NCBI GenBank assembly: GCA_903919315.1
Contig: CAIXHP010000016.1
Location: forward strand, 1-51,184
Origin: an uncultured Pseudomonadota bacterium
Lineage (GTDB): Bacteria > Pseudomonadota > Alphaproteobacteria > UBA9219
DNA: 51,184 nt
Direction: 5' to 3'
The notes beneath the pieces are model-generated. The model was not told the DNA's origin. It searched no databases and saw only the letters and a list, made by a program, of their open reading frames with translations. The translations under genes were made by a program, and so were the position numbers. How positions within the stretch are numbered: the first letter of the stretch is position 1; each line of letters begins with the position of its first letter. Shown one piece after another: positions 13,147-48,329 of the stretch.

Positions 13147-13845
13147 GTGAAGTTCTTTGTGGATACAGCCGATCTCAACGAGATTAAAGACCTTGCCGCG
13201 ACCGGCCTTTTGGACGGCGTGACGACGAACCCTTCGCTGGTCGCCAAATCGGGGCACAGCGACTTTGTCAGCCTGATTCGTGAAATCGCCTCTGTCGTGC
13301 CCGGCCCCGTCAGCGCCGAAGTCGCCGCGACGGATTATGACACCATGCTGGCCGAAGGGCTTTATCTGGCCAAAATCGCCAAGAATATCGCGGTCAAGGT
13401 TCCCCTGACTCCGGCGGGCCTTAAGGTTTGCAAGCATCTGTCGCAGCAAGGCACGATGGTCAATGTGACTTTGTGCTTTTCGGCGGCGCAGGCCATTCTG
13501 GCCGCCAAGGCCGGGGCGACGTTCGTTTCGCCCTTCGTGGGCCGGTTGGACGACATCGGCGAAAGCGGGATGCAGCTGATCTCGGACATCTGCACGATCT
13601 ACAGCGCTTATCCAGAGTTCAACACGCAGATTTTGGTGGCCTCGGTGCGCAGCCCCATGCATGTGGTCGAAGCGGCCAAGATGGGCGCCGATGTGGCGAC
13701 CATCCCGCCCGCCGTCATCCGCCAGTTGTTTTCGCATCCGTTGACGGACAAGGGCTTGGCGCAGTTCGTGGCCGATTGGGCCAAGACCGGTCAGACGATT
13801 CCCACGGCGGGCAATGTTCAACCGTTGAAGTCCAGTCGCACCTAG
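13147..13845 (+). CDS. transaldolase / fructose-6-phosphate aldolase family (TalC type)
   Basis: 232 residues, the short single-domain TIM-barrel form. It transfers dihydroxyacetone units in the non-oxidative pentose phosphate pathway (transaldolase) or cleaves fructose 6-phosphate; the two activities cannot be separated by eye. Visible: [12 protein letters not shown] at the N-terminus, GVTTNPSL, the Schiff-base lysine in [16 protein letters not shown], and [10 protein letters not shown] chose the GTG at 13147 because AGGGAG lies eight bases upstream; the in-frame TTG at 13141 is too close to it. A DUF484 gene follows 15 bases later. Confidence 0.92.
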
Positions 13846-42943: not shown

Positions 42944-43405
42944 TCAGCTGCGCAGGCTTACAATCTTAACAATTTTGCCTGCGCTGTTGTGGTGCAGTGT
43001 AATGTGGCGAGCTGATTGCATCGTGGCCACTTGCTTTGAGGGAATCTGGAACGAGTCGGCGACTTCATTGAGTTCCAGAGCGGGAACCATGTGACGGCGC
43101 TCCCTGTCACGGCTGCCAAAACGGAACTGGTTGTATATGGCCCAGCCGATTAACGATGCCCCGATGGGAATGGCAAACCATGCGTAAGTGGCGATGAGCC
43201 GGAGCGTGGCGAGGATAGAGGGCATGTCGACGGATTGAACGTCAAAGACGACCCAGTCCCACAGTTTCACAGCGTTGCTGTAGACATCCTTTGTAAGATA
43301 GACAAAGTACACCCACATCAAAACGGTCAGGATAACATCGCGGATATGCACCCACAACGGCGGCGGGTTGTGTTGGGATTCGACTATGTAATCGCGCTGT
43401 GTCAT
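42944..43405 (-). CDS. pgaD: PNAG synthase accessory subunit
   Basis: 153 residues from ATG at 43405, which overlaps the last codon of the pgaC frame (AGATGA). Two transmembrane segments (about 17-42 and 68-95) flank a short loop, followed by a cytoplasmic tail, as in E. coli PgaD (about 137 residues). PgaD stabilises PgaC and together they form the cyclic-di-GMP-responsive synthase. The upstream extension of this frame (to 43534) lies inside pgaC and is not used. Assignment rests on topology and position as the fourth gene of pgaABCD. Confidence 0.8.
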   Translation of the reverse strand: MTQRDYIVESQHNPPPLWVHIRDVILTVLMWVYFVYLTKDVYSNAVKLWDWVVFDVQSVDMPSILATLRLIATYAWFAIPIGASLIGWAIYNQFRFGSRDRERRHMVPALELNEVADSFQIPSKQVATMQSARHITLHHNSAGKIVKIVSLRS

Positions 43406-43761
43406 CTGAACCCTCGATCCGCAGTGTGCCATAGACCGCGTTGTTTTGAGTCTCTTAAAAAGGCTTTTGTGAATCCCACCAAGCTCGTCGCAAGCGACAG
43501 CATCCAAAAGGCCAGTGGGTACCAAACGGCCCAAATAATGTTACGAAACAATTTTTCCTCGTAGCGCGACTCGATCTTGAGCGCAACAGCGAACTGTAGC
43601 AAGCACAGGACGGCGAGCAACGTACCGACAAAAGACGGCGGAATGACGGTCGGGACATACAATCCCACCGGCAGCTCGACGAATTTTCCGATGCCCCACA
43701 ACAACAGCGACAAGGCGAAGGTATAGGCCCATGTTACGCTGAAGATATATTCAAGCATCAC
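43402..43761 (-). CDS. pgaC: PgaC C-terminal part, separated by an in-frame stop
   Basis: This frame continues pgaC directly after a TAG codon at 43765-43767: one Gly codon, then GTG-ATG. From the GTG it encodes 119 residues matching the end of PgaC: MLEYIFSVTWAY, two or three transmembrane helices, CLLQFAVALKIESRYE, IIWAVWYPLAFWMLSLAT and a DRGF end. An AGGG lies six bases before the ATG, so restart of translation is possible. If made separately, it would be a membrane fragment that could join the catalytic part in the synthase. If not made, the synthase lacks its C-terminal membrane anchor. Confidence 0.75.
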   Translation of the reverse strand: MMLEYIFSVTWAYTFALSLLLWGIGKFVELPVGLYVPTVIPPSFVGTLLAVLCLLQFAVALKIESRYEEKLFRNIIWAVWYPLAFWMLSLATSLVGFTKAFLRDSKQRGLWHTADRGFR

Positions 43762-43764
43762 GCC

Positions 43765-44697
43765 CTACATGCGGCGGTTGCGCCAAGACAGCATTTTGGG
43801 AACATTTTTGAAGAACACTTCAGCGCCGCCTTGCGCCCACCGTAGGCGCTGTTTCCACAGGCCTTTGAACGTTTCCGGCATCAAAATCCAACACAGCGCC
43901 ATGGGTTCATACTGTATCTGCCAATGGTTGAGCTGGAGCAACCAGCTAATGTCGATGTCGTCGGTCATCATGTTGAGGCTCCAATAGCCGCAACGCTGCA
44001 AAGCCGAACGCCGGAACGCGACGATGACACCGGACACAGTGAAAATGTTTCCATAGATGCGCTGCGAGCGCTTAATCAGCCCGATGATGGACGAAAATTC
44101 ACCGATCTGAATGCGTCCCAGCAAGGTCGAGCGCGTACGAATACGGGGATTCCCTGTCACAGCTCCAACGCGCGCGTTTCGGATCATCGGCGCGATCAAC
44201 CATGAGGTTGTGTCCGGAGTCATCAAGGCATCGCCGTCGATGCACACCAGATAATCGCCCTTGGCCGCCAAGGCACCCATTTGCAAGGCCAAACCTTTGC
44301 CTTGGTTGGTGGCCAAATGGACGACTCTCAGCATGGGGTAGGTTCGCGTCAGTCCGTCCAGAACAGCGCCTGTCTCGTCCGTCGATCCGTCATTGACGGC
44401 CACGATCTCAAAGCGCGGGTAGTTTTGCGCAGCGGCCGCCGCGATCGTGTCATGGACGTTGAGGGATTCGTTGTAGCAGGGGATGACAATCGAGACCAAA
44501 GGCGGATTTCTAAATTGTGGAGCGGCATCGCGTCCGGGCTTTGTTTCCCAGTGATAGTAAAAATAGATTCCGCCAATGATCCATAGAATGGACATGAACA
44601 TCGGATACAGAAAGACAAAGTCCAGACCATGGCCGCTTGCCATGGTAATCAGGACGACGCCGAGAACGACGATGAGGCCAAATATCTTTTTCTTCAT
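43765..44697 (-). CDS. pgaC: PNAG glycosyltransferase PgaC, cut short by an in-frame TAG
   Basis: 310 residues, against about 441 for E. coli PgaC. This GT2 enzyme polymerises GlcNAc from UDP-GlcNAc and extrudes the chain. Two N-terminal membrane helices (about 5-20 and 28-47) precede the catalytic domain, with all key motifs intact: Asp103 in [11 protein letters not shown] (154-156), TDDID (245-249) and QRLRW (283-287). It stops right after WRNRRM, where family members continue with Trp; TAG differs from TGG by one base. Joined to the following frame it would be 431 residues. pgaB ends six bases upstream. Confidence 0.85.
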
Positions 44698-44703
44698 TGG
44701 ATG

Positions 44704-45882
44704 CTAGTCCGTTGGTGGTGAGAACTCTTGGTTCAGAGCTATTGTTGATGGTCGATCCCTGATGAAGTCATCAGGGTAATAAGCCAGATTGATGGCTCCA
44801 TGATCCAGCAGCAGGCGCATTTGCGCGGCGATGCGGGCCGGCGGGATGGAGCGGTTAGCATCGCGCTCGCCTTTGCGCCAGTCGACAGTTTGCAACTCGA
44901 ATATCGTGCGGTTCAGACCTTCAGGCTGATGAGACGCTGCGGAGACCAACTTGCGCAACCAAGCGTTCGCTTCGGCATCGGGAATGTTTTCCAAAGCGGG
45001 CATCGCCATGACGGCCGTGTAGTCGTAGGCTTCGCAGAAGCGGCCGTAGTTTTGCGCAAACCACGTTTCGCGGGCGGGGATGAGCGCTATCGGCGCATAG
45101 ATATTACGCGCCGTTTTGAGCGGATCGCGGTATTGCCGCGCTCGCGATGCGAGTTCATGCGTAAAGCTTATCAGGCTGCTCGTTTTATAGTCTGTCCAGC
45201 GTTGCATCAGGTCGGGATTGTCGCGGATGGTTCGGATTGACGGCGGAAGACCTGCGGCTTCATAGGCTTTCAGCGCGGGTTCGGACGCATCCTCGAAATC
45301 CGACAGTAGAGCGTCGTCATGGAACAACAGTCCCTTGATCGGCGCGTTTTCGGCCAGATCTTCGTAAATTTCCGCGATTCGCTTGCGCCCCTTTTCGTCA
45401 AATGGCGAGACGCGGCGGTAGGCTTTGGCATCTCGTTTCGCTTCGTCGCTGCCGGGGTTCCATGCGAGGACGGGCGCGACATCGCCTTTGAAGTCAAAGG
45501 ACAAGACGGGCAACCAGCCATAGACTTCGACATCCGCCCGCGACGCGAGTTCCTGCGCGACATGCTTGAACAAATCCTTCCGCATCGGCAAATGGCGGTT
45601 GGGAAAATACAGTGCGCTGGCCAAGCCTGTTCCCTTGGGATCGGCGAAGGCTTGGAGAAAAATCGTGTTGACGCGCAGGGCGCGCATACGGACGACGAGC
45701 GCGTCAAGGTTGCTGGCTTCCTGCGCCGGATTTTCGTCATACACATAATCGAGGTCAACCTGCACCGCGCGCACGGGTTTCACAGGCGTGGCCTCAGACG
45801 TGCGCTTGGTGTCTTGCTCGACTGCGGTGGAGCATCCTCCCAACAGGAGCAAAAGGCCGCAAAGGGCAAGAGCGCGGGTCAT
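44704..45882 (-). CDS. pgaB: PgaB-like lipoprotein with only the glycoside hydrolase domain
   Basis: 392 residues, against about 672 in E. coli. A lipoprotein signal (lipobox LGGC, Cys17) is followed directly by the C-terminal GH153-type domain of PgaB: VQVDLDYVYDENP-like strand at about 40-52, TIFLQAFADPKGTGLA, LYFPNRHLPMR, and the active-site motif FHDDALLSDFED (187-198). The N-terminal NodB-type polysaccharide deacetylase domain, with its metal-binding His and Asp residues, is absent. This protein could therefore cut or guide PNAG in the periplasm but should not deacetylate it. It overlaps the pgaA stop (ATGA). Confidence 0.88.
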   Translation of the reverse strand: MTRALALCGLLLLLGGCSTAVEQDTKRTSEATPVKPVRAVQVDLDYVYDENPAQEASNLDALVVRMRALRVNTIFLQAFADPKGTGLASALYFPNRHLPMRKDLFKHVAQELASRADVEVYGWLPVLSFDFKGDVAPVLAWNPGSDEAKRDAKAYRRVSPFDEKGRKRIAEIYEDLAENAPIKGLLFHDDALLSDFEDASEPALKAYEAAGLPPSIRTIRDNPDLMQRWTDYKTSSLISFTHELASRARQYRDPLKTARNIYAPIALIPARETWFAQNYGRFCEAYDYTAVMAMPALENIPDAEANAWLRKLVSAASHQPEGLNRTIFELQTVDWRKGERDANRSIPPARIAAQMRLLLDHGAINLAYYPDDFIRDRPSTIALNQEFSPPTD

Positions 45883-48329
45883 GGCTGAAAACGCAGGGCG
45901 AGATCGAAGCCGACCGCGATGTCGTCTTCGGCTGCGCCGTCGTAGGATCTGTGGAGGAAACGCGCGTTCGCGCCGATGTTGGCGGTGTCGTTAAGGAAGA
46001 GTCTGTGTTCATAGCGCGCCTGCAGAACGGGCGCGCTGCCGTAATGGTCTTCCCAGTTCACACCGGCCATGACGTGCAGATTGTGCTGCCACAGCGTCGC
46101 ATAGCGTTGGTAAAGCGTGTGAACCGCTCTTCCTCCGGCCAGCGCGATAAAGTCGCTGGAGGGGTTGTAGTAGAAGCGGTTGGAGTCGGCGCTGTTTTGC
46201 TCAAGGCCCAATGAGGCCAGACCCTCTAGCCTGAACTTGGGGATAACATGCAGCTGTTGCATGAAATCGACATCCGCTCCGGTGCGGAGGTTGTCGTCCG
46301 AAAACGGCATGATGTGCGCACCGACGCGGACGCTGCGGGTCTCGTCTTTTTTCCACGTCGCGCTGGCGTTGATCGAGTCGGCGGTCACGCCTTGGTTCAT
46401 GGCGCGAAGGGGGGTGGCGTTGCTTTCCTTCTCTCCGGCTAGCGCCACAGTCCAGTAATCGTTCAGCGTGCGCGTAACATCAGCTTCGAAGCCCAGACGG
46501 CTTTCATCATGGAAAGCGCTGAAAGTCGGAGCGCCGCGCACGACCCAGTCGCCGTTTCGATATTCCACGCCCAAAGCGCTGCGCGACAGGCTGATCGAGC
46601 CTTCGTTCCCCGGCTCTTTCTGGTTGGCATACTGCGTACCGACGAAAACACGCCATTTGTTGTGGATCAAAGGCGAGAAAAACTTGCCGCCGATAAACAG
46701 GGCGCGTGTCGGATTCACGCTGCCGGTGCCGATCGGTTGCCCGTATTCGCCATAGGCTTGAAGTTCGGCCATTTTTCGGACTTTCGAGTCGCGGGCCAAC
46801 CTTTGCACGTTGCTGTTGTCGGGGAAGCGCTTTGTCAAGCTGTCGACGAGCGCGTCGGATTCGGCGAGATTCTGAAGGGCGAGGGCGCTGTTGGCGAGCC
46901 CCACTTCATTGTCGCGGTTCTGTCCGTTCGCCATTTGAAGGCCTGAGAGGTATTCTTCCTTGGCCTTGCGCGGATGTCCGTGCGCCATGTCGAGATTGCC
47001 GCGCAGCTCGCGCTTGTAAGGCGTGTTGGGCGGGGAGTCGATGATGGGAGCCAGTCGTTTTTCGGCTTCGCGCGGCATACCTGCGTACAGCCGCGCCAGT
47101 CCGGCAATGGTCGCCGCCGTTTCGCGCTGCGCGGCGGCTTCCCTGTTCCCGGCGGGAGCGGTCTCTTCGGCCAAAGCGTCGATGGTTTTGAAGGCGTTGT
47201 CATAGTCGGACATTTCGTTATAGGCGTAGAAGAGCTGTTTTCTCGCCCCGTAATTTTTCGGATCGGATTTCAGAACCGCCAAATAGGCATCCCGGCTCTT
47301 TTGGGGTTCGCGCAACGCCAAATAGGCGTCGCCCACCGCTCGCATGACGTAGGGGGGAATGTCCACGCCTTCTTGCTGCAACTTTTCGTATTCGGCAATG
47401 ACTTCCTTCATGCGCGTGCGGTCGCGCAGCGCGACCATGCGGTCGAAGCGCAGACGGTTGACTTCCTTGGTCGTCGCGACGCGCTTGCCGCTCCAATGCG
47501 ATAGGAGGCGATCTTCTTCGGCGATAGCGCGGTCAACAGTGGCATAACGCCGTTCCTTGGTGTCGGGTTCGTTCGTCCCTATGCGCACCAATTTCGCAGC
47601 GCGGTCGGCAAGGAGGCGGCGGTATTCTTCAGCTGTAACGACCCTGCGGTATTGCCCAACCAATTGCAGAGCCTCTTCCGGCGCGTCATCCGCCTGCAAG
47701 GCCAAAATCATATCGCGCTGCGCATCATGGTTGCTCGGGTCGGCTTGCAGCGCTCGCTTGCAATAGCGCACGGCATCCGCTGTCTTTTTCTGCGCCGTGG
47801 CGGCATAGGCGGCGGCGAGCAACACTTCGACGCGGTCGCCATGGGCGCGCAAATCATCTTCGGCCATCTGCGCCGCTGTTTCTTGGTTTCCGGAGTCAAC
47901 CGCGCTGCGCACTTCGCCCGCGACAAAGTTGGCGTTGTAGGGCGACTGCGCACGTCCTTGGCGGTATATTTTTATCGCTTCGTTCGTCCACGACATATCG
48001 CGATAAGCGCGTCCGACCGCCTCCAAAACAAAGTCAGGTTGTGGAACGTTCGGCATGGACTCATACAAATGTATGACATCGGCGTTTAGCCCGGCCCAAC
48101 CTGATACCAAAAGCGTTTCGCGCGTGACGTTTAGGTCGTCGGGGGCTTGCTGATGGAGCGTGCGAAGAATTCGCAGCGCCGCGTCGGTCTTTCCTTCCCG
48201 CGCCAGCTTTACCGCTTCGCTGTGGTAAGTCTTTACGTCCAAATAATCCGCATGCGCCGGACGGCTGGTCGCCGCCACGCTCATGAGTAAGGCCAGAGCG
48301 ATGAGCCGGGAACTTTTTACAAAACGCAT
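45879..48329 (-). CDS. pgaA: PNAG export porin
   Basis: 816 residues, matching E. coli PgaA (about 807). Signal peptide about 1-27 (ending PAHA). The periplasmic half (about 30-500) is built of TPR-like helices, for example AVKLAREGKTDAALRILRTL. The C-terminal 300 residues alternate polar and hydrophobic positions as an outer-membrane beta-barrel and end in a hydrophobic strand (FDLALRFQP). It exports PNAG across the outer membrane and recruits PgaB. First gene of pgaABCD; no clear ribosome-binding site before the ATG at 48329. Confidence 0.9.
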   Translation of the reverse strand: MRFVKSSRLIALALLMSVAATSRPAHADYLDVKTYHSEAVKLAREGKTDAALRILRTLHQQAPDDLNVTRETLLVSGWAGLNADVIHLYESMPNVPQPDFVLEAVGRAYRDMSWTNEAIKIYRQGRAQSPYNANFVAGEVRSAVDSGNQETAAQMAEDDLRAHGDRVEVLLAAAYAATAQKKTADAVRYCKRALQADPSNHDAQRDMILALQADDAPEEALQLVGQYRRVVTAEEYRRLLADRAAKLVRIGTNEPDTKERRYATVDRAIAEEDRLLSHWSGKRVATTKEVNRLRFDRMVALRDRTRMKEVIAEYEKLQQEGVDIPPYVMRAVGDAYLALREPQKSRDAYLAVLKSDPKNYGARKQLFYAYNEMSDYDNAFKTIDALAEETAPAGNREAAAQRETAATIAGLARLYAGMPREAEKRLAPIIDSPPNTPYKRELRGNLDMAHGHPRKAKEEYLSGLQMANGQNRDNEVGLANSALALQNLAESDALVDSLTKRFPDNSNVQRLARDSKVRKMAELQAYGEYGQPIGTGSVNPTRALFIGGKFFSPLIHNKWRVFVGTQYANQKEPGNEGSISLSRSALGVEYRNGDWVVRGAPTFSAFHDESRLGFEADVTRTLNDYWTVALAGEKESNATPLRAMNQGVTADSINASATWKKDETRSVRVGAHIMPFSDDNLRTGADVDFMQQLHVIPKFRLEGLASLGLEQNSADSNRFYYNPSSDFIALAGGRAVHTLYQRYATLWQHNLHVMAGVNWEDHYGSAPVLQARYEHRLFLNDTANIGANARFLHRSYDGAAEDDIAVGFDLALRFQP

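Follow-up and report, generated by a model that had tools for sequence, protein, structure and literature searches.

A premature amber codon in the pgaC gene of an alphaproteobacterial pgaABCD operon, most likely a recent loss-of-function mutation

The pga operon and its interrupted pgaC frame

The window (the whole stretch of 51,184 nucleotides that was analysed) corresponds to contig 16 in an assembly of 2.40 Mb and 70 contigs, and it carries a pgaC gene linked to pgaA, pgaB and pgaD in a complete pgaABCD operon (Table 1). Translation of the minus strand from 44697 to 43402 gives a single PgaC-like protein with one internal TAG, base 43766 being the A of this codon. The same frame continues beyond the stop with GGC (Gly, 43764-43762), then GTG ATG and 117 residues after the Met, and it closes with a TGA at 43404-43402 that overlaps the pgaD ATG at 43405-43403 (ATGA). 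The original prediction of two same-phase frames (44697-43765 and 43761-43402) with only TAG and one Gly codon between them, the second ending in an overlap with pgaD, holds in every coordinate.

Table 1. Features of the pga operon in the window
Feature	Position	Strand	Basis
pgaD, intact; start overlaps the pgaC stop	42944..43405	-	TIGR03940 (82.1 bits), PF13994
pgaC 3' of the stop: C-terminal membrane helices (three predicted)	43402..43764	-	TIGR03937, fold-model helices
GTG ATG, proposed restart codons	43756..43761	-	In uninterrupted G010, the ATG encodes Met
In-frame TAG, pgaC codon 311	43767-43765	-	Trp column in relatives (alignments)
pgaC 5' of the stop: GT2 catalytic domain preceded by two N-terminal membrane helices; 310 codons and the TAG	43765..44697	-	TIGR03937, GT2 Pfam matches
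pgaB, intact, hydrolase domain only; ends in TAG	44704..45882	-	TIGR03938 positions 269-619, PF14883
pgaA, outer-membrane porin, intact	45879..48329	-	TIGR03939 (554.3 bits), PF21197

Both frames were aligned to the PgaC/IcaA profile TIGR03937 end to end, which bears out the earlier naming of the gene as pgaC. The upstream piece matches profile positions 3-289 (458.9 bits, E = 1.5e-137) and by itself exceeds the curated cut-off of 422.3 bits, the downstream piece matches positions 292-407 (105.3 bits, E = 3.5e-30), and the frame read across the stop scores 579.6 bits. The two halves are co-linear with the profile, which leaves no room for an insertion, deletion or frameshift, so that only a single codon departs from the layout of the family. 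The matches on both sides also rule out a chance pairing of open frames as the source of the split gene. The locus thus resembles known PgaC/IcaA systems in that the two pieces jointly span the profile, contain the motifs NDGS, DGD, TDDID and QRLRW, and are located between pgaB and pgaD; the difference is that the single continuous reading frame expected of the family is here broken by an in-frame stop. Residues D103, D154/D156, D247, Q283 and R286-W287 are invariant across 32 sequences including the present one. As had been proposed, the catalytic motifs are found 5' of the stop and the C-terminal membrane segments, amounting to three helices, 3' of it.

A fold model of the frame read across the stop, which was done for modelling only, reached a mean pLDDT of 86 and a pTM of 0.87. 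Codon 311 falls in helix 305-337, seven residues from its start; this is the first membrane helix past the catalytic domain, and further C-terminal helices are modelled at 355-376 and 383-414. The first fragment is therefore predicted to keep the catalytic domain and to lose three of the five membrane helices.

Several variants are also seen among the operon neighbours. PgaB with only the C-terminal hydrolase is shared by the present genome and its relatives G010, G004, G011 (the C249 copy), G005 and G021, while two-domain PgaB is found in G016, G018, G013 and G022. A second PgaB-like frame in G011 (C37, 4-1347), located at a contig edge, matches the deacetylase part of the profile with two overlapping matches. 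The sole PF01522 deacetylase of the present genome resembles the XrtA-system type. The part of a PgaB survey available to us (PMC7112194) describes clades without the hydrolase, and clades without the deacetylase are not found there. The deacetylase-less PgaB may merit more attention than the stop in pgaC, because the hydrolase reportedly cuts PNAG that has been deacetylated. PgaA, moreover, has 816 aa here versus about 1130-1220 codons in the open frames of several family members, the longer frames having extra matches to the N-terminal TPR region of PgaA.

PgaC copies in relatives and the age of the stop

The family sample comprises 24 genomes including the present one, and PgaC is possessed by 10 of them. 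All ten other copies in the family, from nine genomes, are uninterrupted and have Trp at the column of the stop. In a wider set of 31 uninterrupted homologues drawn from a second genome collection, 27 have Trp and the other four L, L, M and I. The suggestion that the stop replaced a conserved tryptophan is hence supported, with the restriction that Trp is not invariant at this position. PgaC was found in only 4 of 385 genomes sampled across the class at the threshold used, and the stop occurs in the present genome alone; no other PgaC examined has an in-frame stop. One PgaC match from another family of the class (L084; G159:C30:21662-22882) is located in an open frame of 854 codons, about twice the usual length, and is possibly a fusion.

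The nearest relative, G010 (also L086; MAG Kiruna_bin-02063), is 75% identical. No second strain of the species was found in our search: in the collection, the genus is represented by the present genome only, and no contig matches more closely than 75%. Neither was a second intact pgaC found in the genome, the other GT2 matches scoring at most 61 bits.

Downstream of the stop, the present genome has 3 private changes at 69 well-conserved sites and G010 has 5; at 233 upstream sites the counts are 13 and 9, respectively. The codons 3' of the stop thus evolve no faster than in G010. By comparison, a simulation of unconstrained drift at 0.05 substitutions per site yielded about 7 changes downstream and a 59% chance of a further stop. 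The dS between the two genomes is about 2.4 upstream, which is near saturation and limits dN/dS on both segments, and it is not computable downstream; any unconstrained period would accordingly make up a small part of the branch. The lack of excess change indicates that the downstream part stayed under constraint during almost the whole period after the divergence from G010, and hence that the stop, if real, is recent. The earlier argument from the preserved downstream frame is strengthened by these counts, with recency bounded loosely by a nearest relative of only 75% identity.

Assembly error, readthrough and restart

Next after a recent nonsense mutation ranks the reading that the organism has no fixed stop here: the TAG would be an error of base calling or of the consensus, or a minor strain-level allele, in a draft, probably metagenomic, assembly. 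We regard this as the less likely account, though one with a clear basis: the difference amounts to one base in preserved surroundings with no signs of decay, the draft consists of many contigs, and the nearest named relatives are metagenome bins. Against it, the stop site has no long homopolymer, the assembly has a rated completeness of 100% and contamination of 0.53%, and no other clearly split gene was seen among the identifiable TAG-separated frame pairs in about 250 kb (the window and ten 20 kb stretches).

The same sample argues against the ribosome reading through the amber codon, by a suppressor tRNA or by recoding, to give full-length PgaC. Apart from a few pairs without family matches, the TAG-separated same-frame neighbours in these 250 kb or so are separate genes (for instance, a glycanase-like gene beside an exosortase, and AsmA beside ATP12), and genome-wide recoding of TAG is thereby rejected. 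TAG is an ordinary terminator that ends about a quarter of the long frames sampled (48/189), and release factor 1 is present (488.9 bits). The search for an amber suppressor called for by the original prediction found no CTA anticodon among 43 confident tRNAs, and the sole tRNA-Trp is normal (CCA); ARAGORN listed 44 candidates with none reading UAG, in a set that is nearly complete and lacks, for example, Ile-GAT and Ala-TGC. One of the ARAGORN predictions, a 93-base tRNA-Arg (tcg) at 13451-13543 on the plus strand, is absent from the Rfam tRNA search and is possibly a false positive. Moreover, pgaB itself ends in a TAG (44704-44706, minus strand) that is in frame with pgaC and six bases ahead of its ATG (44697), so that efficient readthrough would fuse PgaB to PgaC. 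Readthrough, which had been proposed as one way of keeping the gene in use, therefore seems very improbable in spite of the preserved downstream frame.

The other proposal was a split-subunit enzyme, in which translation stops at the TAG and restarts at the nearby GTG or ATG, and the two polypeptides assemble. An AGGG is located four bases 5' of the ATG. According to the fold model, the third membrane helix would be almost whole if translation restarted at Met314; a two-piece enzyme may thus be structurally possible, but it is otherwise unsupported. The cut falls within a predicted helix, and the comparison with relatives proposed earlier revealed uninterrupted PgaC throughout, with a split form in none of them. 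Both the ATG and a purine-rich GGGGAG stretch before it occur in the uninterrupted gene of G010 and are hence older than the stop; the G010 sequence 5' of the corresponding Met (TGGGGAGTT) looks, from its letters, no weaker as a ribosome-binding site. As the restart ATG is a coding Met in an intact gene, it did not evolve to rescue pgaC and gives no evidence of an adapted restart. A two-piece synthase is in our view the most doubtful of the explanations, and it is scarcely probable that either stop and restart or partial amber readthrough is a real feature of the species.

Loss of PgaC function and its meaning

The most likely explanation, in our view, is that the sampled strain has recently lost PgaC function through a nonsense mutation (probability roughly 0.6). 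A point mutation would have interrupted the sole pgaC, with the pgaABCD operon otherwise intact; that no other decay is visible in the operon counts against this reading. Translation would stop at codon 311, and the product would consist of the two N-terminal membrane helices plus the GT2 domain, the three C-terminal helices being lost; this fragment would be inactive, and a strain with the stop allele would make no PNAG. We infer that the stop base is real and, by analogy with related synthases, that the first fragment is probably inactive. GT2 synthases such as BcsA carry out polymerisation and translocation through membrane helices. PgaC, in addition, works together with PgaD: its activity depends on PgaD, which is unstable without PgaC (reviewed in PMC8461298). 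These two properties are the grounds on which loss of function is suggested.

Among the papers listed in our literature search, none directly reports pgaC with premature stop codons. A similar event is known from Escherichia coli K-12, where cellulose production was lost through a single TTG-to-TAG change in bcsQ (PMC5944007). Both cases involve a single point change that makes a TAG in an otherwise intact operon for a biofilm exopolysaccharide. However, the bcsQ stop interrupts an accessory gene close to its start and has an experimentally demonstrated effect, whereas the pgaC stop affects the synthase itself and is known from sequence.

The evidence gives no hint of a novel mode of PNAG synthase production, and the understanding of PNAG synthesis is unchanged whether the stop is real or not. 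If it is an error, annotation of this pgaC as a split gene or a pseudogene would be wrong; if the base is real, it would represent another case of biofilm polysaccharide loss through one nonsense change, in a class with few pgaC genes.
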